This document shows, piece by piece, positions 527-11,989 of a stretch of DNA of 34,554 nucleotides. This DNA is from Burkholderiaceae bacterium (lineage in GTDB: Bacteria; Pseudomonadota; Gammaproteobacteria; Burkholderiales; Burkholderiaceae_C), in contig JAISNB010000037.1 of assembly GCA_031276435.1 (NCBI GenBank), positions 1 to 34,554 of the forward strand, in the 5' to 3' direction. Numbering within the stretch: the stretch's first letter is position 1; each line of letters opens with the position of its first letter. Position numbers and translations under genes: made by a program. The notes beneath the pieces were generated by a model. The model searched no databases and had not been told where the DNA came from. It was given only the letters and a program-made list of their open reading frames with translations.

Positions 527-603
527 CTATACAAATTTGGAATGCCTGCTGCTCCAGGCGCGGAGCAATCCCAGCAGGCTGCATGACACGAAAATTTGTA
601 TAG
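527..603. promoter_or_regulatory. Nested inverted repeat in the leader/promoter region of the first peroxidase operon
   Basis: CTATACAAATTT (527-538) / AAATTTGTATAG (592-603) perfect 12-bp arms; inner GCCTGCTG (544-551) / CAGCAGGC (572-579); innermost GCTCC (551-555) / GGAGC (562-566). Confidence 0.65.
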
Positions 604-632
604 AATCGCAGCTTTTCCCACCTTTGAGCCGC

Positions 633-1061
633 ATGGTGAAGTTTTCTCTGAAGCACAGGCTGGACTTTTTGACTGGACGCTTCCTCTCTCTTGCCACGCT
701 GTCGGGGGCTGTTGTGTTGCTCATGTGCTGTGCGTTCTCTGCTGCTGCGCGCGCGGCTTCGAACGAAGTCGTGGTGAAGCCCGGTGTCTTGCCAGTACCG
801 ATAACTATCAACAAATTCTACGAATTTCCACTGGTGGTTAGCGATGCGAACGGCGCTGGCGTACCAGGGCTGGGTCTGAAAATTCGCGGGCGCATGCCCG
901 AGCACGCTCATGGGCTGCCCACAGAGCCTCAAATCGTTGATGAAGGCGAAGGACGCTACCGGGTCAAAGGATTGAGCTTCAATATGCCAGGCCAATGGGT
1001 GATAGAAATTCTGCGTGACGGTGATTTGCTGTTTCGACAGAAATTCATGGTGCGGTTTTGA
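633..1061 (+). CDS. YtkA/FixH-like secreted or membrane-anchored protein
   Basis: Signal-peptide-like N-terminus MVKFSLKHRLDFLTGRFLSLATLSGAVVLLMCCAFSAAARA; motif GRMPEHAHGLPTEPQ...GRYRVKGLSFNMPGQWVIEI typical of YtkA-like domains. Start chosen downstream of ORF-track start at 537. Confidence 0.7.
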   Translation: MVKFSLKHRLDFLTGRFLSLATLSGAVVLLMCCAFSAAARAASNEVVVKPGVLPVPITINKFYEFPLVVSDANGAGVPGLGLKIRGRMPEHAHGLPTEPQIVDEGEGRYRVKGLSFNMPGQWVIEILRDGDLLFRQKFMVRF

Positions 1062-1069
1062 AGTTCATC

Positions 1070-2323
1070 ATGTCCAGGGTTTTGCTGGCCTCCTGCGGAT
1101 TGGTTTTTACTCTGCTGCTCATCCTGTTTCTGATGTTCCACCACACCCATGCCGGGAGTATGCATTCGATGTGGTCAGACGACGATATCGCCGTTTTACG
1201 GAGTTTGCGTTTTTCCACACAAGACGTTGCCGACAAGAATCGCTCCAATGAACTGCTTTTCCGGGAGGATGCCATCGAGTTGGGCAGGCGCTTATTTCAC
1301 GATACTGGCCTGAGCGGTTCTGGCAAAGTGGCCTGCGCGTCCTGCCATCGGCCGGAAGATGGTTATCAGGACACGCAGTCCATTACCTACCAGCTCGATC
1401 CGGACGCAATGCATCGCGCGCCCGGTTTGCTGGGAGTCGCTTTACAGGACTGGTTTTTCTGGGATGGTCGCGCGGACTCGCTCTGGAGTCAGGCGCTGGT
1501 TGTTATCGAAAGCCCGATGGAGATGGCGTCGAGCCGTTTGTACGCGGTGCGGCATCTGTGCACGCAATATGGGGGAAACTTTTCCGAGCTGCTACAAAGT
1601 TGCCGCGGGGTCGACCTGTCCGCCGTGCCCGTGCACGCCTCGCCGCGAGTGGCTGATGAGAACTGGAGAAATCTTGGCGCCGAACAGCGGGATAAGATCA
1701 ACAAACTGTTTGTCGTTATCGGGAAAAGTATTGCCGCTTTCGAGGCCGGGCTGATGCCACCGATCTCCCGCTTTGATCTTTATGTCGATGCGCTTGTCGA
1801 AGGCAATCATGCCAGGGCCGCTACGCTCCTGGATGAAAAAGAATTGGCTGGATTAAAGCTGTTTCTTAATACGCAGATCACCGGCTGCATCAATTGTCAC
1901 AACGGCCCGATGTTCTCCAGTTCGGGTTTTTTTGCCGTCGCAACCGACACGCCGGGAAAGCCGGAGCATGACCGCCAGCGTGGCGTTGGCATTTTGCTTG
2001 ACAGCGAATTCAACTGCCTGAAATGGGACGAGGGCGATTCCGGGGGCTGTCCCAAACTCCAGTACATCAAGAACGATCCCGCAGAGACGACGGGCGCCTA
2101 TAAGGTGCCCTCGCTGCGCAATCTTCGTCATGCGCCCGCTTTCATGCATGACGGTAGTCTTCCGAATCTCGGAGCCGTCATCGAACACTACCGGACTCCC
2201 GCAATTTTTCCCTTGCGGCATATTGATATTCGTCCAGCGGCAATGCTGCCGCATCAGCGCGAGCAATTGCTCGCTTTTTTAAATGTACTTGGAACAGGCG
2301 TTTCTCGCCAGGAACCTCAATGA
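1070..2323 (+). CDS. Di-heme cytochrome c peroxidase / MauG superfamily protein
   Basis: Two heme motifs CASCH and CINCH; YKVPSLRNLRHAPAFMHDGSLPNLGAVIEHY signature; N-terminal membrane/signal segment. Alternative TTG start at 1058 overlaps the upstream stop. Confidence 0.88.
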   Translation: MSRVLLASCGLVFTLLLILFLMFHHTHAGSMHSMWSDDDIAVLRSLRFSTQDVADKNRSNELLFREDAIELGRRLFHDTGLSGSGKVACASCHRPEDGYQDTQSITYQLDPDAMHRAPGLLGVALQDWFFWDGRADSLWSQALVVIESPMEMASSRLYAVRHLCTQYGGNFSELLQSCRGVDLSAVPVHASPRVADENWRNLGAEQRDKINKLFVVIGKSIAAFEAGLMPPISRFDLYVDALVEGNHARAATLLDEKELAGLKLFLNTQITGCINCHNGPMFSSSGFFAVATDTPGKPEHDRQRGVGILLDSEFNCLKWDEGDSGGCPKLQYIKNDPAETTGAYKVPSLRNLRHAPAFMHDGSLPNLGAVIEHYRTPAIFPLRHIDIRPAAMLPHQREQLLAFLNVLGTGVSRQEPQ

Positions 2324-3303
2324 AAAATAAATTTTTCCTGTTGCCCTTGTTGTCCTTTTTTCATCTGGCAGCGCAAGCGCATGTGCAATGGTTTGTTACG
2401 ACCGAGCAGATGAAGAATGTTTCCCTGCCGCTGGACATGGTGAGCCTGTGGCTGACTGTGGGCGTGCTGGCCTGCACACTGGTCGCGGTGCTGTTGACCC
2501 GGCATGCCAGCATCTCTTCGATCACGGAGCAACTGCTTTGCCGCATTCCCGTGTTTGACCACCGGCTGTATCTGGTGTACTTCATGACCTTGATTGCTGT
2601 TTTTCTTGTCATGATCCTGCTCCAGGGCGGATTTCTCGCGCCCAACCTGATTTTGCCGCAATCCCTGTTGTCACTCGGCGTTTTGCTGCAAGCGGCCATC
2701 GTTGTCTGTGCGACATTCAGCACGTCGCTGGCAGGGATTGTGATGCTGATTACGACGCTGTTCGTTGTGTTCGTTTTTCCATCAATATCGATCAATTACG
2801 TGTTCGAGCTTGGCGCCATCGGCATTTTCATGGTGTTGAACGGGCCAGTCATCAGTACTGTGGATCAATGGATGCTGCCTGCGTGCAAGTCGGAACGGTT
2901 TTGGAAGCTTTCTGTCCGGATTCTCCGCATGGGTATCGGTTTGCAACTGGTCGTACTCGCCCTCACGGAAAAATTGATATATCCGGGTTTGGGGCTTGTT
3001 TTTATCGAGATGTATCCGTTTTATAACTTTTTCATCCTCCTCGGACTGGATCAGGTAAGCAATTTGCATTTCATTTATTTCATTGGTATTTCCGAATTGG
3101 TGTTGGGATTGATGTTGATGTTTGGCATTGCCAGCCGCCTGGTGCTGGTGGCGTTGGCCGCAGCCTTTACGACAACCGCCATTATCCACGGCGTGCATGA
3201 AATTCTGGGTCACCTGCCGATTTTCGCCGCCGCCGTTATTTTGTTGCTGGAATGCGTCAATCAAGCCAGACCGCGAGGCCAGTCCCGCAAGAAAGGTGTT
3301 TGA
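2320..3303 (+). CDS. DoxX-like multi-pass membrane protein
   Basis: Signal peptide ending AQA|HVQWF, several hydrophobic segments, C-terminal ISELVLGLMLMFGIASRLVLVALAAAF DoxX-like region; ATGA overlap with upstream peroxidase. Confidence 0.65.
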   Translation: MKNKFFLLPLLSFFHLAAQAHVQWFVTTEQMKNVSLPLDMVSLWLTVGVLACTLVAVLLTRHASISSITEQLLCRIPVFDHRLYLVYFMTLIAVFLVMILLQGGFLAPNLILPQSLLSLGVLLQAAIVVCATFSTSLAGIVMLITTLFVVFVFPSISINYVFELGAIGIFMVLNGPVISTVDQWMLPACKSERFWKLSVRILRMGIGLQLVVLALTEKLIYPGLGLVFIEMYPFYNFFILLGLDQVSNLHFIYFIGISELVLGLMLMFGIASRLVLVALAAAFTTTAIIHGVHEILGHLPIFAAAVILLLECVNQARPRGQSRKKGV

Positions 3304-3554: not shown

Positions 3555-3780
3555 ATGAAGAAAAAGTGCTGCCCGCGCAATGCAGGCGCTGGCAGCCGCT
3601 TGTGCATGCCGCCAGCGATGGCGCTGAGCGCGCAGGATTGCAGCGCGAACGAACCCACCCAGTCCCCCGCACTGGATAAGGAAGGTCGGCCCCCGGCAGA
3701 AATGACTTCAGACGACAGCAAGTAAGTGGTCTTGCGCCTTATATGTCTCAGGGCATGGTGGTGGAGTAGCGCGTGTGATC
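3555..3780 (+). pseudogene. Decayed 5' fragment of a di-heme peroxidase gene, paralogous to the gene at 4089
   Basis: Nucleotide-level similarity by eye: 3505-3765 vs about 4050-4345 (e.g. ggcgctggcagccgcttgtgcatgccgccagcg / ggcgctggccgtcgcttgcatgttgccagcg; gcgcaggattgcagcgcgaacga / gcgcaagatcgcagcgcaagcga; gtcttgcgcctt / gtcttgcgcctc). CASCH codons replaced by tgc gcc tta tat gtc (CALYV). Confidence 0.65.
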
Positions 3781-3961
3781 GATCACGGGCCGATGGCGCC
3801 GCGCGCGCAGACAGGGCAGAGACCCTGGGGGCGCAGGCAGGCGGCAATGCTACCGAGTCTCGCGCTGCCGTGCCGGGCGGGCGCCTGGCAGCGTTGAGCG
3901 GGATTTTTGTCTCATTGTGACAACATTTTTGCGCGTGGGCAGGCCAAAAAATGAGAACAAA
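3749..3961 (+). repeat. Copy 2 of the diverged non-coding repeat, upstream of the second peroxidase gene
   Basis: Same ordered blocks as 239-454; includes 22-nt identity cgctgccgtgccgggcgggcgc at 3863-3884 vs 340-361. Confidence 0.75.
3907..3923. promoter_or_regulatory. Candidate regulator-binding palindrome TTGTCTCATTGTGACAA
   Basis: Arms TTGTCTCA / TGTGACAA match 7 of 8 positions; the left half (ttgtctcattg) is conserved in copy 1 (385-395). Confidence 0.5.
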
Positions 3962-4088
3962 GTCACACTTTTGGACTATTTTTTTGTTGTCATGCGCTTC
4001 AAAGTGACCAACTCCCGTATAGTGAAGGCTACTTCAAAGTAGCTGCCGTCCAAGCCTTGGGCGCGCGGCGTTTTCATGACCGACCTGT

Positions 4089-5132
4089 ATGAAGCACTAT
4101 CCAAAAAATGTTGTCCGCAGAGCGCGGACACTGCTGGCGCTGGCCGTCGCTTGCATGTTGCCAGCGGCGGCGTTGTACGCGCAAGATCGCAGCGCAAGCG
4201 AGCCGATCAAGCCCCTGCCGCCCAAACCCGCGCTGGATGCCAAGAAGGTCGAGCTGGGCAGGCTGTTGTTCAATGACGCGCGGTTTTCCGATGACGGGTC
4301 GGTGTCTTGCGCCTCGTGCCACAAGGTCGAGGCGGGCGGGGCCGATGCGGGGCGCAAGCTCTCTGTTGGGGTGCGCAAGCAAAGCGGAACCATCAACTCG
4401 CCATCGGTGCTCACGGCGGCCTACAACTTTCGCCAGTTCTGGGATGGTCGCGCCGACACGCTGGAAAACCAGATTCCGCATGTGCTGAGCAATCCGCGCG
4501 AGTTTGGCAGCACCTGGCCCGCGGTGGTGGCGCGCCTGAGCGCCGATCCCAAGCTGGTTGGCGCCGTCAAGGAGGTGTACGGCACAACCGCGCTTTCGCA
4601 GCGCAATCTGAGCGATGCCATCGCCACGTATGAACGCTCGCTGCCGGAGCCGTCGCGTTTCGATCAATACCTGCGTGGCGACAGCCAGGCCATTACCGAG
4701 GATGAGCGGCAAGGCTACGTCAAGTTCAAGTCGTATGGTTGCATTGCCTGCCACCAGGGCGTGAACGTGGGCGGCAACATGTATCAGCGCTTGGGCGTGC
4801 TGGGCGATTACTTCAACGACCGCGGCGGCCCGCTGACCACGGACGACATGGGGCGCTTCAACGTGACCCGGCGCGAATCGGACCGGCACGTCTTCAAAGT
4901 GCCCAGTCTGCGCAACGTGGCGCTGACGCCGCCTTATTTCCACGATGGCTCGGCCACCACTTTGGAGCAGGCCGTGCAGGCCATGTTCAAGTACCAGTTG
5001 GGCCGCAGCGCGCCGCCGCAGGATGCCGCCCAGATCGTGCAGTTTCTGCGCGCGCTGACGGCGCAATCGATTGAAAAGAACCAGCGCGGCGCTACCACCG
5101 CCGCCACGGCACAAGCGAGCCAGAAGCCATGA
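4089..5132 (+). CDS. Di-heme cytochrome c peroxidase
   Basis: Heme motifs CASCH and CIACH, NVGGNMYQRLG, HVFKVPSLRNVALTPPYFHDGSATTLEQAVQAM; signal peptide. Confidence 0.92.
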   Translation: MKHYPKNVVRRARTLLALAVACMLPAAALYAQDRSASEPIKPLPPKPALDAKKVELGRLLFNDARFSDDGSVSCASCHKVEAGGADAGRKLSVGVRKQSGTINSPSVLTAAYNFRQFWDGRADTLENQIPHVLSNPREFGSTWPAVVARLSADPKLVGAVKEVYGTTALSQRNLSDAIATYERSLPEPSRFDQYLRGDSQAITEDERQGYVKFKSYGCIACHQGVNVGGNMYQRLGVLGDYFNDRGGPLTTDDMGRFNVTRRESDRHVFKVPSLRNVALTPPYFHDGSATTLEQAVQAMFKYQLGRSAPPQDAAQIVQFLRALTAQSIEKNQRGATTAATAQASQKP

Positions 5133-6967
5133 AGCCCAGAACCCGAACCTTTGTCTCCTGGCTGATTGGCTTGCTGCTGGCCGCCCTGGCCTTTGGTGTG
5201 CTGGGCTTTCTGGTGGTCAAAAGCCGCAGCTACGACTCGCAACTGCGCACCGATCTGGTCGCCAACCTGCGCGATTTGCGCGAGATGAACGCGCGGCTGG
5301 ACGTGGATGTGCTGCGCTCGCGCAATGGCCTGAACAACGACTACGACCCGTTGGGCGAAAACTTGCAGGCCATCCAGAGCGTCAATGAGCGCCTGATGGC
5401 GCAAGCGGCCAACGCCCGCATGGATGCCACAGCCCTCAAGAATCTGGCCGATGTGTTCCAGCAAAAGCTCAATGTCATCGACGACTTCAAGGCCACCAAC
5501 GCCATTTTGCTGAACTCGCTGCGCTACCTGCCCACGGCCATGGAAGATGTGGAAAAAAATCCGCAGGCCGACGCCGACTTGCGCCTGCGCGTCAACCGGG
5601 TGGTGGCCGACGTTTTTCGTGCCAGCCTGCTGAGCGATTCGATCAACGCGCAGCAGGTGCGCGCCCAGTTGCGGCAGGTCATCGAGAACGTGGCCATCAC
5701 GGCGGGGCCTGAATCGGAGCTTGCGCAAATCGCGCAGGGCTTTCAGCTTCACGCGCTCACCATCTTGCGCCAGCGCGAAACCGAAGTGACCCTGTTCGAG
5801 CAATTGCAGGCCATTCCGATGCGCAGGCAGCTCGATGCCGCGCAGTCATCGCTGGAAGCGCAGTTCGAGCTACGGTCCGAAGGCAGCGAGATGTACCGCG
5901 ACTTCCTGGCCATCTACTCGGCCGTCCTGTTGCTGGGGCTGTTCTACATCGCCTGGCGTCTGGCGGCCAGTTACCGCCTGCTGGCGCGTGCCAATCGCCA
6001 GCTTGGCGAGGCCAACGCGCATCTGGAGCAGCGCGTGGAAGAGCGCACGCACGACCTCAACCGCGCCATGGAAGACCTCAAGGCATCCGAGGCCGACCTG
6101 ATCCAGTCAGAAAAAATGGCCTCGCTGGGGCAAATGGTGGCGGGCGTCGCGCACGAGATCAATACGCCGCTGGGCTACGTGCGTGGTACCGTGGAATTCA
6201 TGGATGGCGTCATGGGCGGCAACATCCACCCGTATTGCGAGCAAACGCGCCAGCTTCTGCAAGCCATGCGCAAGCCCGACGCCACCGAGGACGAAATCCA
6301 TCAAAACTACGAAACGGCGCTGGCGAGCATGGAAAACATGGACGCGCAGCTCACGAGCGATTTGCAAACCGCGCTGAAAAACAGCCTGCACGGGCTGGAC
6401 CAGATCAGCGAGATCGTGCTCAACCTCAAGAACTTCAGCCGCCTCGACCGCAGCCGCAACACCTTGTACAAGGTAGAAGACGGCATCGACAGCGCCTTGC
6501 TGCTGGCCAAGCAGCAGGTCAAGCACCGCAAAATCGTCAAGATGTACGGCAACACGGTGCCCATCCTGTGTGCGCCCTCGCAAATCAACCAGGTCATGCT
6601 CAACCTCATCACCAACGCAGTGCAGGCCACCACCGAAGAAAACGGCACCATCACCATCACCACGACCCACAAGAATGCCGACACCATTCAGATCAAAGTG
6701 GCCGACAATGGCAAGGGCATACCGGAAGATCAGCTTGGGAAAATCTTCGATCCCTTCTACACCACCAAGGCCATTGGCCAGGGAACCGGGCTTGGGCTGT
6801 CCATCGTGTACAAAATCATCGAACAGCACAAGGGCAAGATCGAAGTCTTTTCCAGGCCCGGGGTTGGAACGCTGTTTTCCATAGAGCTTCCCGTCGGCAG
6901 CGCGGACAAAAACGAACCCGGGGCGGAAACCACCACAAGCGGTGAGTTGCTGCTCCTGGATGATTGA
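5129..6967 (+). CDS. Membrane sensor histidine kinase, probable DAHL-type N-terminal sensor domain
   Basis: Two TM segments flanking an all-alpha extracytoplasmic region; H-box VAGVAHEINTPLGYV; HATPase motifs NLITNAVQA, DNGKGIP, GTGLGLSIV; ATGA overlap with upstream peroxidase. Confidence 0.9.
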   Translation: MKPRTRTFVSWLIGLLLAALAFGVLGFLVVKSRSYDSQLRTDLVANLRDLREMNARLDVDVLRSRNGLNNDYDPLGENLQAIQSVNERLMAQAANARMDATALKNLADVFQQKLNVIDDFKATNAILLNSLRYLPTAMEDVEKNPQADADLRLRVNRVVADVFRASLLSDSINAQQVRAQLRQVIENVAITAGPESELAQIAQGFQLHALTILRQRETEVTLFEQLQAIPMRRQLDAAQSSLEAQFELRSEGSEMYRDFLAIYSAVLLLGLFYIAWRLAASYRLLARANRQLGEANAHLEQRVEERTHDLNRAMEDLKASEADLIQSEKMASLGQMVAGVAHEINTPLGYVRGTVEFMDGVMGGNIHPYCEQTRQLLQAMRKPDATEDEIHQNYETALASMENMDAQLTSDLQTALKNSLHGLDQISEIVLNLKNFSRLDRSRNTLYKVEDGIDSALLLAKQQVKHRKIVKMYGNTVPILCAPSQINQVMLNLITNAVQATTEENGTITITTTHKNADTIQIKVADNGKGIPEDQLGKIFDPFYTTKAIGQGTGLGLSIVYKIIEQHKGKIEVFSRPGVGTLFSIELPVGSADKNEPGAETTTSGELLLLDD

Positions 6968-6999
6968 GACAAACCTGAAAACCAGGGAGAAAACCACAA

Positions 7000-8127
7000 T
7001 TGGAACACCCACAAACAGCCAACCCGGCCCGGACGGCCAGCGGTTTCAAAACCGATCGCGCCGCCGCAAGCAAGGCCACCGTACTGCTGCTCGACGACGA
7101 GGAGCGCGTCGTCGAAACGCTGCGCATGATCTTGCGCCCGTTCTACAACGTGCTGACCGCAACCGAAGGCCAGGCCGCGCTGCAATTGCTTTTGGCCCAC
7201 AAGGTGCAGGTCATCATCAGCGACCAGCGCATGCCCAACATGACTGGCGTGGAATTCTTGCGCAAGGCGCGCCAGATTTCCCCGGCCAGCGTGCGCATCC
7301 TGCTGACGGGCTTCTCCGATCTCAAGGCCATCATCGACTCGGTCAACGAGGGCGAAGTCTTTCGCTTTCTCAACAAACCCTGGGGCAATGCCGAACTGCT
7401 TTCCGTGGTGACCGAAGCCGTCGAAGTGGCGCGCCAGATCGACACCGTTGCCCCGGACGTCAAACAGTCCCTGGCCGAAAACGCGCAAGTCCAAATTCCG
7501 GAAGCCGCCTCTGAAGCGGCCCACGCGGAGCAGCCAGCGGCCACCGCTGCTGCTGCGGCGGCGCGACATCACCACCTGCCGCCAGTCACCAAGGGCGTGG
7601 TGCTGGTCAAAACACCCAACCGCACCTTGTACGACCAGATCATCCTGACGCTGCCGCAAGGCGTGGCCTGCCTGCACGCCGCCACACTGGACGAGGCGCT
7701 GGCCGTGCTGGAGCGCCACCCCGTCAACGTACTGGTGGCGCACTTCGACAAAGTGGCCGACGCGCAAAACGAGGCGCTGGCCTTCAAACTGCTCAAGCGC
7801 GACTTTCCGGCGCTCATCAGCATTGCCCTGATCCGCAACACCGACGCCAACGACCTGATCTCCATGATCAACCAGGCGCGCGTATTCCGCTGCGCCACCC
7901 TGCCTTGCAAGGCGTCGCTGGTCAGTTTCTTCATCGTCAGCGCCCTGCGCCAGCACCAGACCCACCTGGCCGCGCCGCAATTGCTGCAAACGCAGCGCGC
8001 CGAACGCTTCGACGTGCCCGCGCAGGCGACCAGCGACGGTCGCTCTGACCCGGCCACCACGGGGCTGCTCTCGCGCATCGGCTCCATTTGCAAGCGATGG
8101 CTGGGCGCGCCAGCGGCCAGTAACTGA
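7000..8127 (+). CDS. Response regulator with canonical N-terminal receiver and a degenerate second receiver-like domain
   Basis: VLLLDDEERVVETL, IISDQRMPNMTG, LLTGFSDLK, RFLNKPWGN; second half KGVVLVKTPNRTLYDQI...VLVAHFDKV...CATLPCK lacks the acidic pocket; no recognised DNA-binding domain. TTG start preceded by agggaga. Confidence 0.82.
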   Translation: MEHPQTANPARTASGFKTDRAAASKATVLLLDDEERVVETLRMILRPFYNVLTATEGQAALQLLLAHKVQVIISDQRMPNMTGVEFLRKARQISPASVRILLTGFSDLKAIIDSVNEGEVFRFLNKPWGNAELLSVVTEAVEVARQIDTVAPDVKQSLAENAQVQIPEAASEAAHAEQPAATAAAAAARHHHLPPVTKGVVLVKTPNRTLYDQIILTLPQGVACLHAATLDEALAVLERHPVNVLVAHFDKVADAQNEALAFKLLKRDFPALISIALIRNTDANDLISMINQARVFRCATLPCKASLVSFFIVSALRQHQTHLAAPQLLQTQRAERFDVPAQATSDGRSDPATTGLLSRIGSICKRWLGAPAASN

Positions 8128-8170: not shown

Positions 8171-8974
8171 TCAAACGCCAATGGCAAATACGGCAGGGGC
8201 GCGGCCAAGTTGCGGGCTGGCGCGCAGGCGCCAGTCTTGCACCGTCAGGCTGTGCGTGGCGGCTTCGGGCAAGGTCAGGGCCTGGCTGACGGATACGCGG
8301 GTTTGCGCTTGCAGTGTTTGCAGCATGGTCGCCAGCAAGGACTGGCTGCGGTAGGGTGTTTCGATGAACAACTGGGTTTGTCCGCTGGAGAGGGCCATCG
8401 CTTCCAGATCGCGCAGCCGCCGGGTCAGCAGCGCGGCGTCTTGCGGCAGGTAGCCCACAAAGGCAAAGTTCTGCCCGTTCAGGCCGCTGGCGGCCAGCGC
8501 CAGAATCAGCGAGCACGGTCCCGCCAGCGGTGTGACGGGGATGCCAAGCGCGTGCGCCGCGCGCACGACGGAGCTTCCAGGGTCGGCCACGGCGGGCAGG
8601 CCGGCTTCGCTGACCAGGCCCATGGCATATCCGGTCAATGCGGGCGCGAGCAGTTTTTGGGCGTCCCAGGCGGCGGCAGTGCCGCCGCGTCCGGCATGGT
8701 CGCCTTTTTTGTGGATGGCATGCGGCAGTTGCGCGATCCGGATTTGCTGGAGCGGCCTCGCCAGGGGCGCCTCGGCATGGACGCGCTTCAAGAACGCGCG
8801 CAAGGATTTGGCGTTTTCGCATACCCAGTGCTCAAGCCGCGCCGCCGTGGCGATGGCGGCAGCCGGCAGGGTTTGCGACAGCGGCGCGGACTGGTCGTCG
8901 CAGCCATGATCCAGCGGCGTGGGCACCAGGTACAGGCAGCCGGTTGGGCGGCGGGTTTGCGACTGCTCGCTCAT
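8171..8974 (-). CDS. SAM-dependent methyltransferase, tetrapyrrole methylase/RsmI-like family
   Basis: LYLVPTPL, GLVSEAGLPAVADPGSSVVRAAH, VTPLAGPCSLILALAASGLNGQNFAFVGYLP, FIETPYR. Confidence 0.85.
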   Translation of the reverse strand: MSEQSQTRRPTGCLYLVPTPLDHGCDDQSAPLSQTLPAAAIATAARLEHWVCENAKSLRAFLKRVHAEAPLARPLQQIRIAQLPHAIHKKGDHAGRGGTAAAWDAQKLLAPALTGYAMGLVSEAGLPAVADPGSSVVRAAHALGIPVTPLAGPCSLILALAASGLNGQNFAFVGYLPQDAALLTRRLRDLEAMALSSGQTQLFIETPYRSQSLLATMLQTLQAQTRVSVSQALTLPEAATHSLTVQDWRLRASPQLGRAPAVFAIGV

Positions 8975-9561
8975 GGCAGTTGAAATCCGGCGGCGCGCAG
9001 CAGGCGGGCGGTGCGAATCAGCGGCAGTCCGATCAGGGCCGTGGCGTCGTCGCTGTGAATGGCTTGCAGCAGGGCGATGCCCAGGCCTTCGCTTTTGGCG
9101 CTGCCAGCGCAGTCGTAGGGTTGTTCGGCGCGCAGGTAGCGCTCGATTTCGGCATCCGTGAGGTCACGAAATTGCACGCGGACGGTTGCCAGCTCTTGCT
9201 GCGCGAGTCTTGCGCTTTCGCATACCGCGGCTACGGCGGTGTGGAAGATGACGGTTTGCGCGCGCATGCACTGAAGCTGGGCGGTGGCGCGCGCGTGGTT
9301 GCCGGGTTTGCCCAGCGCCTGGCCATGCAGGTCGGCCACCTGGTCTGATCCGATGACCAGCGCGTGGGGATGCAGGCGCGCCACGGCCCGCGCCTTGGTC
9401 AGGGCCAGGCGCTCGGCCAGCGTGCGTGGCGCTTCGCCGGGCAGGGGCGTTTCGTCCACATCGGGCGCGACGGTGGTAAACGGCAGGCCAAGGCGCGCCA
9501 GCAGTTCGCGGCGGTAGCGCGATGTGGAGGCCAGGATGAGGGCGGAGGGCAATTGGGGCAT
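8971..9561 (-). CDS. Maf family nucleotide pyrophosphatase (YceF-like)
   Basis: LILASTSRYRRELLARLGLPF, VIGSDQVADLHGQALGKPG, YDCAGSAKSEGLGIALL, IGLPL. Confidence 0.9.
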   Translation of the reverse strand: MPQLPSALILASTSRYRRELLARLGLPFTTVAPDVDETPLPGEAPRTLAERLALTKARAVARLHPHALVIGSDQVADLHGQALGKPGNHARATAQLQCMRAQTVIFHTAVAAVCESARLAQQELATVRVQFRDLTDAEIERYLRAEQPYDCAGSAKSEGLGIALLQAIHSDDATALIGLPLIRTARLLRAAGFQLP

Positions 9562-9586
9562 GGCTGGATTCTCTTACACTGCGCCA

Positions 9587-10138
9587 ATGGCTCAGACACT
9601 GAATCCCCGGCGGCTCGATGTGGCGCGCTTTGCCCGGCAAGACGCCCAGCTTGGCGGGCAGACGGCGCTGCGCGATTTTGCGCGCGTGGCGCAAGATTGC
9701 CATGCGGACATTGCGGCGGATAACGTGGTCGAATGGCTGGCCCATGGCGAGTTTCGCGCGGCGCCCGATGGCAGCGGCCACCCGGCGCTGCATTTGCGGG
9801 CGCGGGCGCAAATGCCCATGGTTTGCCAGCGTTGTCTGGAGCCGATGCTGATGGCTGTGGCTGTGGATCGGCATTTCGTGTTTTTGTCTGGCGAGGCGCA
9901 GGCCACGGCGCTGGACGATGCGTCGGAAGACGATTTGCTGGCGCTGGTGCGCGACTTCGATTTGCTGGCGCTGATCGAGGACGAGCTGATGCTCGCCATG
10001 CCACTGGTGCCCAGGCACGCCGCGTGCCCGGGTGCGCCACGTGTGGCGGCGCAAGACGATGCGGCGTTTGAAGCGGCCATGCGACAGCGGCGCAATCCCT
10101 TCGCCGCGCTGGAGAGCCTGAAAAAAAGAACGGTTTGA
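9587..10138 (+). CDS. yceD: YceD family (DUF177) protein
   Basis: [13 protein letters not shown] and [20 protein letters not shown]; located immediately before rpmF. Confidence 0.85.
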
Positions 10139-10236
10139 AACGCAACGCCCGATGGGCTGGGGCGTGGGGCCTCACGCACCTGAAACAAAGCGGGCCGCAA
10201 GCGCCGGAAAACGCTTGGGGCGCGGCCAGTTTTGGG

Positions 10237-10266
10237 GCCAAACCAACGTATAATCAGCGGTTTGGC
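10237..10266. promoter_or_regulatory. Inverted repeat centred on a -10-like TATAAT upstream of rpmF-plsX-fab
   Basis: GCCAAACC (10237-10244), TATAAT (10249-10254), GGTTTGGC (10259-10266). Confidence 0.55.
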
Positions 10267-10473
10267 AAAAACGGCTTTGGCCTGGACTTCCTTTCGCGGC
10301 GGTCTTGCGCCCAGCAGGCTTGCAAAAGCGGGTTGGGCGGCAGCAAGCCGCAGTCGCAAAGCCGGAAATTCATCGGATTTGATCGTCGGTTGCGCGGATC
10401 GGCAAGAAGCGCCCCCCACAGGGGCCTTGTATCGAATTGCGCGACGGGTCTGTTTTTATCGCAAGGAGCCATC

Positions 10474-10659
10474 ATGGCTGTTCAGCAAAACAAGAAATCG
10501 CCGTCCAAGCGCGGCATGCACCGCTCGCACAACGCGCTCAGCGTGCCGGGCATCGCCGTCGAACCCACCACGGGCGAGACGCATCTGCGCCACCACATCA
10601 GCCCCAACGGTTACTACCGTGGCCGTCAGGTAATCAAGCCCAAGGCCGAAGAGGCGTGA
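10474..10659 (+). CDS. rpmF: 50S ribosomal protein L32
   Basis: [22 protein letters not shown]...[23 protein letters not shown] aaggag upstream. Confidence 0.97.
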
Positions 10660-10900
10660 TTGTCCAGCCCCTTGCGGGGCGGGATCGCCATGCTGGCCTG
10701 TGGCCGCGGCGGCTGGCCTCGATCCGGGGGTCGCGCCGCCAGGCCCAAGCCCTCTGTACTTGCAAAATTGGCCCGAAGAAATGCCGCCGGGCGACGCGGC
10801 AAATCCGGGCCTGAATCGTGTTTGCGTTGGCGATTTTTTCAACGCTTTGGGTTTTGATTGTTGCCGGAGCCTTTCTGTCCGGGCGAAAGGGCTGGCCCTG

Positions 10901-11989
10901 ATGAGCATGATTGTTCTGGCGGTTGACTGCATGGGCGGTGACCATGGTCCGGCTGTCATTTTGCCGGCCTGTCGCAAATTTCTGGACGCAAATGCCGACG
11001 CGCGGCTTTTGCTGGTGGGGCAGCCAGAGGCGCTGGGCGCGTTTTCGCACGAGCGCGCCACCGTGGTGGCGGCCACCGAGGTGGTCAGCATGGATGATGC
11101 AGTGGAAGTGGCGCTGCGCAAGAAGAAAGACTCTTCCACGCGCGTTGCCATCGAGCAGGTCAAAACGGGCGCGGCGCAGGCCGCTGTCTCCGCTGGCAAT
11201 ACCGGCGCGTTGATGGCCATCGCGCGCTATTTGCTCAAAACCATCGACGGCATAGAGCGCCCGGCCATTGCCACACAGTTGCCCAACGCCAGGGGCAAGG
11301 CGACTTTGGTGCTGGATCTGGGCGCGAATGTCGATTGCAGGGCCGGGCATTTGTTGCAGTTCGGGGTCATGGGCGCGGCGCTGGTTTCGGTGCTCAACAA
11401 CGATCCGCATCCAACGGTCGGTTTGCTCAATATTGGCGAAGAAGCCATCAAAGGCAACGAAGAGATCAAAAAAGCGGGCGAATTGCTGCGCTTTGCCGCC
11501 GAGCGGGGCGATTTGAACTTCATCGGCAACATCGAAGGCAACGACATTTTCAAGGGCACGGCCGACATCGTGGTCTGTGACGGTTTTGTGGGCAATGTGG
11601 CGCTCAAAACCACCGAAGGCCTGGCGGCGATGCTGGTCGGATTCCTGCGCGAAGAGTTTTCGCGCAACACCCTGACCAAACTGGCCGCCCTGTGCGCCTA
11701 TCCCGTTCTCAAGTCGCTGCAACGGCGCATGGATCATCGCCGCTACAACGGCGCGGCCCTGCTTGGCCTGCGCGGCCTGGTGTTCAAAAGCCATGGTTCG
11801 GCTGATGTGATTGGCTTCGAGCACGCGCTCTCGCGCGCGTATGATGCTGCGCGCAACCAGTTGCTGGAGCGCGTGCGCGATCGCATCGCGCACGCGGCCC
11901 CCCTGTTGCTGGCCGAAGGGCCGGAGGCGGTGGCAGCGGCGCAGGCCGCCTCTGACGCCGCCGCCGCGGACGGTCAGGCTCAGGCCTGA
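10901..11989 (+). CDS. plsX: Phosphate acyltransferase PlsX
   Basis: [56 protein letters not shown]. Confidence 0.95.

Follow-up and report, generated by a model that had tools for sequence, protein, structure and literature searches.

A gene trio at positions 4089-8127, on the + strand of a 34,554-nucleotide stretch of DNA from a Burkholderiaceae bacterium (assembly GCA_031276435.1, contig JAISNB010000037.1; hereafter the window), was read from its open reading frames (ORFs) as a di-heme cytochrome c peroxidase (CCP), here CCP2, followed by a histidine kinase with a DAHL sensor domain and a response regulator. We regard it as somewhat probable that this trio exemplifies a widespread kind of sensory cassette, in which a DAHL receptor has a peroxidase of a separate subclass as its sensing partner. 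The evidence comes from the gene order and its conservation, from residues that distinguish the DAHL domains and peroxidases found together, and from the variety of outputs behind them. The features of the trio are as follows.

4089..5132, + strand: CCP2, di-heme cytochrome c peroxidase, 347 aa, putative periplasmic sensor partner (ORF and profile matches)
4089..5132, + strand: residues of CCP2, namely hemes C74-H78 and C218-H222, V95 replacing the labile His, W118, E138 and Met299
5129..6967, + strand: DAHL-domain sensor histidine kinase, 612 aa, phospho-acceptor His342
5234..5899, + strand: DAHL periplasmic sensor domain, kinase residues 36-257 (Pfam PF19443; model pLDDT 82.6)
7000..8127, + strand: response regulator, 375 aa, receiver (Asp75) and pseudo-receiver, TTG start

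The CCP2 and kinase genes share the four nucleotides ATGA at 5129-5132, and exactly 32 nt separate the kinase stop from the regulator TTG at 7000, with AGGGAGA just 5′ of the TTG. An earlier note on this DNA had claimed both the overlap and a spacing of about 32 nt, and both were confirmed. The + strand showed no terminator-like site at the two junctions of the trio, and the three genes likely form one operon.

The same note had likened the helical extracytoplasmic region of the kinase to the DAHL class and called for a profile search of 5129-6967, which returned PF19443 over residues 36-257 (E 5e-36; 124.9 bits against a Pfam cut-off of 38). The kinase also contains HisKA (PF00512) and HATPase_c (PF02518) domains with His342, N492 and the N and G boxes, and the regulator has a PF00072 receiver carrying Asp75, so that the two show the features of a two-component pair. 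The predicted structure of the DAHL domain, from a model built from two sequences, has seven helices (pLDDT 82.6, pTM 0.74), and its best folds in Foldseek were McpS (TM 0.59), then TorS (0.55) and the TorS-TorT complex, with weak E-values of which the best was 1.4e-3. As modelled, the DAHL domain is a bimodular all-helical periplasmic fold.

Conservation of the CCP-DAHL gene pair

DAHL proteins were gathered from 399 Pseudomonadota and 299 Burkholderiales genomes and their surroundings were read. The linkage census comprised the 128 DAHL proteins whose upstream sequence reached 1 kb or more, the window and plasmid records counted in. A CCP gene was located directly upstream and on the same strand in 85 of these, and 43 were without one; among the linked pairs the commonest junction was a 4 nt overlap. 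As a control, 20 further histidine kinases encoded in these loci were examined, and none had a CCP upstream. The pairing of CCP and DAHL is thus far beyond chance.

The linked pairs span 21 GTDB families of Pseudomonadota, and the closest relative found by sequence, an Azoarcus metagenome-assembled genome (56% identity), has the same three genes. Plasmid-borne trios were found in Vitreoscilla filiformis, Rhizobium etli, Agrobacterium fabrum and A. vitis, and a CCP with a DAHL also in Gloeocapsa, a cyanobacterium. A plasmid query with DAHL only matched Gloeocapsa, Vitreoscilla and A. vitis, all three with a CCP upstream, and Rhizobium sullae, where a CCP match lies about 60 nt upstream of the DAHL on the same strand. 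The distance matrices of CCP and DAHL were correlated (r = 0.62), with none of 5000 permutations as high, relatedness being uncorrected in this comparison.

Two kinds of DAHL domain and of peroxidase

The CCP-linked DAHL domains share [N/H]71-Y-D73, F-K-x2-x-A-x3-N129-S and H208, which the unlinked ones do not have. Numbering is that of the window kinase, in which the linked-DAHL comparison placed the signature as follows.

5336..5350, + strand: signature 1, NDYDP, D73 in 85/85 linked DAHLs
5486..5533, + strand: signature 2, FKATNAILLNSLRYLP, N129 in 84/85 linked DAHLs
5747..5761, + strand: signature 3, LHALT, H208 in 75/85 linked DAHLs

In the census, 84 DAHLs had D73 and N129 together with a CCP and 42 had neither, with one exception each way: L226 has a CCP upstream but N129S, and L232 is the sole DAHL sampled that keeps both residues with no CCP upstream. 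The genes upstream of L232 look like cobalamin-type methyltransferase genes. In a full-length alignment of 36 proteins, D73 and N129 were the only invariant columns besides Met1; in the DAHL model the D73 loop, N129 and H208 sit in separate helices or loops. Four genomes (G863, G377, G313 and G332) hold one DAHL of each kind, and the split between linked and unlinked is therefore not explained by genome background.

The unlinked DAHL kinases were mostly from Burkholderiales and were followed by a long regulator, and the two such regulators read fully were Ser/Thr kinase-receiver-pseudo-receiver proteins. This second DAHL system (L082-L119) occurs in several Burkholderiales families. It has in common with the window trio a DAHL kinase and a homologous receiver/pseudo-receiver tail, the window regulator resembling the C-terminal part of these proteins, but it has no CCP upstream and no D73/N129 signature. 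The C-terminal half of the window regulator was identified as a second receiver-like domain without the acceptor Asp by profile comparison with its own receiver family (probability 99.4, E 8.5e-22, 122 columns). Profile searches of the regulator found no DNA-binding domain.

The peroxidases were divided in the same manner. CCP2 carries the heme motifs CASCH and CIACH, matches CCP_MauG (PF03150, E 1e-50) and has the two CxxCH, the bridging Trp, the Met ligand and the catalytic Glu (E138) of bacterial di-heme CCPs; the labile distal His of the classical, reductively activated members is missing from it (V95). Both heme His, the bridging Trp and the Met ligand are retained in all 85 linked CCPs, and none of them has His at the classical labile position (V in 43, I in 21, A in 10, and others). 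The catalytic Glu is present in 66 of the 85. The unlinked Burkholderiales CCPs (n = 21) had His or Asp at the labile position in 20 cases and the Glu in all 21. The solved CCP structure 9qdt also has V at this position, and V alone does not exclude membership of the wider family. The classical CcpA peroxidases (N. europaea 1iqc, Geobacter 3o5c) resemble CCP2 in the two c-hemes, Trp, Met and Glu, and differ from it and from all linked CCPs in the labile distal His and in their separate placement in the tree.

In the CCP tree, linked and unlinked sequences were split in 2 changes, compared to 20.2 with shuffled labels, and the only misplaced sequence was the long-branched L156. Of the Burkholderiales CCPs, the eight closest to CCP2 in sequence were all DAHL-linked, L171 included. 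Most of the Glu-less sequences among the 46 linked CCPs in the tree fell within one supported clade with hemes and linkage kept, which indicates one or few losses of the Glu.

Sequence surrounding the trio

Operon 1 (537-3303), which encodes a YtkA-like protein, a second peroxidase (CCP1) and a membrane protein, precedes the trio. Two further features were located between operon 1 and the CCP2 gene.

3807..3961, + strand: upstream element copy B, candidate promoter or regulatory region of CCP2 (75% identical to 282-454)
3578..3666, + strand: decayed partial copy of the 5′ (signal peptide) region of CCP2 (75% identical to 4129-4215, E 1e-11)

The upstream element that the earlier note had described as shared is real: 282-454, 5′ of operon 1, aligns with 3807-3961 over 176 columns at 75% identity (E 9e-26), and the assembly has no other long copies. 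Its 30 nt tail (3944-3974, AATGAGAACAAAGTCACACTTTTG) has close variants at five other assembly sites; the element was accordingly rejected as a motif unique to the system and cannot alone define a regulon. The note had further taken the whole 0.2-8.1 kb block as one system, and here the data pointed the other way. Operon 1 was looked for in the neighbourhoods of related trios and was absent, CCP1 had only 3 other relatives at E<=1e-60 (35-36% identity; 151 family genomes searched), and the GC content of operon 1 is lower (52-55% versus 59-65%). Operon 1 was therefore rejected as part of the system.

CCP1 (1058-2323) has FMHDG followed 12 residues on by Y, that is, a Tyr where CCP2 has its Met ligand, and from its sequence looks MauG/MbnH-like. 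The YtkA-like product of the neighbouring 537-1061 could be its substrate. At 1-108, a weak similarity to the terminal part of a DDE transposase (PF13586, E 0.0016, below cut-off) suggests that the block may adjoin an insertion element. On the other side, the trio is adjoined by a housekeeping block at 8174-11986 with a tetrapyrrole-methylase family protein, Maf, YceD and a PlsX-type fatty acid synthesis protein. PADLOC gave no match to a defence system, and this identity for the trio was dropped; the single scan made for viral copies gave none.

Probable role of the peroxidase in signalling

Among 36 linked proteins, HATPase_c was found in 23, GGDEF in 12 and EAL in 10, and the genes neighbouring linked pairs include those of sigma-54, HD and MCP proteins. 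The constant part of the cassettes is the CCP with a DAHL of the D73/N129 type, and the output differs. Because outputs vary behind an unchanged CCP-DAHL pair, where a regulated product would predict a fixed transcription factor, the CCP is probably the input; this variety is the main argument from which we infer such a role. The coupling of a periplasmic di-heme enzyme to a periplasm-facing sensor, proposed in the earlier note, stands as the best reading. The DAHL match and the neighbourhood conserved over many families also speak for the note's interpretation, and the association extends beyond kinases to GGDEF/EAL proteins.

The signalling may be depicted as follows. CCP2 would be exported and loaded with two hemes, and its peroxidatic heme, with no distal His to displace, would be accessible to H2O2 or to some other heme ligand; a heme of this kind should accept peroxide without reductive activation. 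The redox state of CCP2 would then follow the periplasmic oxidant and the electron supply, and in one of its states CCP2 would dock on the DAHL domain, itself helical and bimodular, at D73/N129/H208 or close by, as TorT does on TorS. Docking would alter the autophosphorylation of His342 and hence the transfer to Asp75 of the regulator, whose output would reach its final target by protein contact through the pseudo-receiver.

Three known systems come closest. TorT-TorS-TorR likewise combines a bimodular helical sensor, among the best fold matches of the DAHL model, with a periplasmic partner, but TorT is a trimethylamine N-oxide sensor of the periplasmic binding-protein type and the partner in the window is a di-heme peroxidase. 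The helical bimodular fold of the TorT-TorS co-receptor is thus found in the window and its binding-protein partner is not, and no sequence family common to the two systems was found. The helical bimodular (HBM) domain of McpS is the closest solved fold to the DAHL model, but McpS is a chemoreceptor which binds malate and succinate directly; we know of no peroxidase partner for it. In C. jejuni, the CCP gene docA is located directly upstream of docB (tlp10), which encodes the DAHL chemoreceptor DocB/Tlp10 (PMC3156733), and the tlp10 promoter sits upstream of ccpA (PMC4444964). The C. jejuni CCPs, DocA included, do not contribute to H2O2 resistance, and docA mutants colonise chicks poorly (PMC3156733). 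The DocA (CcpA)-Tlp10 pair repeats the order of a di-heme CCP gene directly upstream of a DAHL receptor gene, and differs in having a chemotaxis output instead of a kinase-regulator pair. No description of DocA and Tlp10 as one sensory unit was found in open-access full text.

Several points weigh against the peroxidase as a sensing partner. Direct binding of small chemoeffectors is reported for Tlp10, according to the papers that cite this work (Elgamoudi 2021, as cited in PMC9796306 and PMC8632791), and on that account a DAHL domain may not need a protein partner; it is also possible that the D73/N129 signature binds a small ligand or a metal. CCP2 still has the catalytic Glu, and an active peroxidase may be all that it is. 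The E-values of the fold matches are weak, the linked DAHLs are mutually related so that the 84 signature cases are not independent, and both the contact and the stimulus are things that we infer.

Some of these points would suit a chemical coupling, in which the DAHL domain senses a small molecule made, consumed or gated by the peroxidase and no docking takes place. The ligand binding described for Tlp10 in those citing papers, the binding of malate by McpS, and D73, N129 and H208 as residues that could line a pocket are in its favour. However, the linked DAHLs of the kinase type have no known ligand, and the loss of the catalytic Glu from some linked CCPs argues against a strict need for turnover, and we consider this explanation unlikely, if the strongest of the alternatives. 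A little less likely still is that the peroxidase is an output, the kinase and regulator sensing an unrelated signal and controlling their own peroxidase operon. The probable single operon and the catalytic set of CCP2, full except for the labile His, would fit. Against this, the regulator yielded no DNA-binding domain, and the same kind of CCP-DAHL pair is also followed by GGDEF/EAL enzymes and by other outputs unable to transcribe the CCP directly. The CCP gene moreover stands in first place, and its presence goes with the DAHL signature, not with the kind of output.

A modification of DAHL residues by oxidation, as by MauG or MbnH, appears very improbable. The superfamily is the same (TIGR04039, E 1e-44; TIGR03791, E 2e-37) and Tyr72 and Tyr133 of the DAHL domain are conserved, but the scores of CCP2 are far under the curated NCBIfam cut-offs (152.9 against 362.85 bits and 129.1 against 443.85 bits, respectively). 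MauG uses a Tyr as ligand in place of Met, whereas the Met of the second heme is kept in 85/85 linked CCPs; MauG/MbnH membership of CCP2 was rejected on its scores and on Met299. Chance or inherited hitch-hiking of genes with no functional link can practically be dismissed: the linked genes share ancestry and some lie on plasmids, but the DAHL signature and the CCP match nearly one to one, across phyla and with different outputs, and none of the 20 control kinases has a CCP upstream.

We therefore retain the peroxidase as the sensing partner. In its wider form, to which we give about even chances, the proposal is that the His-less di-heme peroxidases are dedicated periplasmic redox or peroxide co-receptors for DAHL domains. 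The CCP with its D73/N129-type DAHL would be one exchangeable input module that in several phyla serves two-component, cyclic di-GMP and chemotaxis outputs. Certain members would be sensors only, with catalysis given up. Ready-made controls for this proposal are at hand in the signature residues and in the DAHLs that lack a CCP. If it is true, a role of DocA as the sensory partner of Tlp10 may explain why docA mutants colonise chicks poorly with no part of DocA in H2O2 resistance. The proposal would also give a function to a large set of cytochrome c peroxidases whose annotation is that of a detoxification enzyme, and an input signal, the periplasmic oxidant or electron state, to the widespread DAHL sensor domain.

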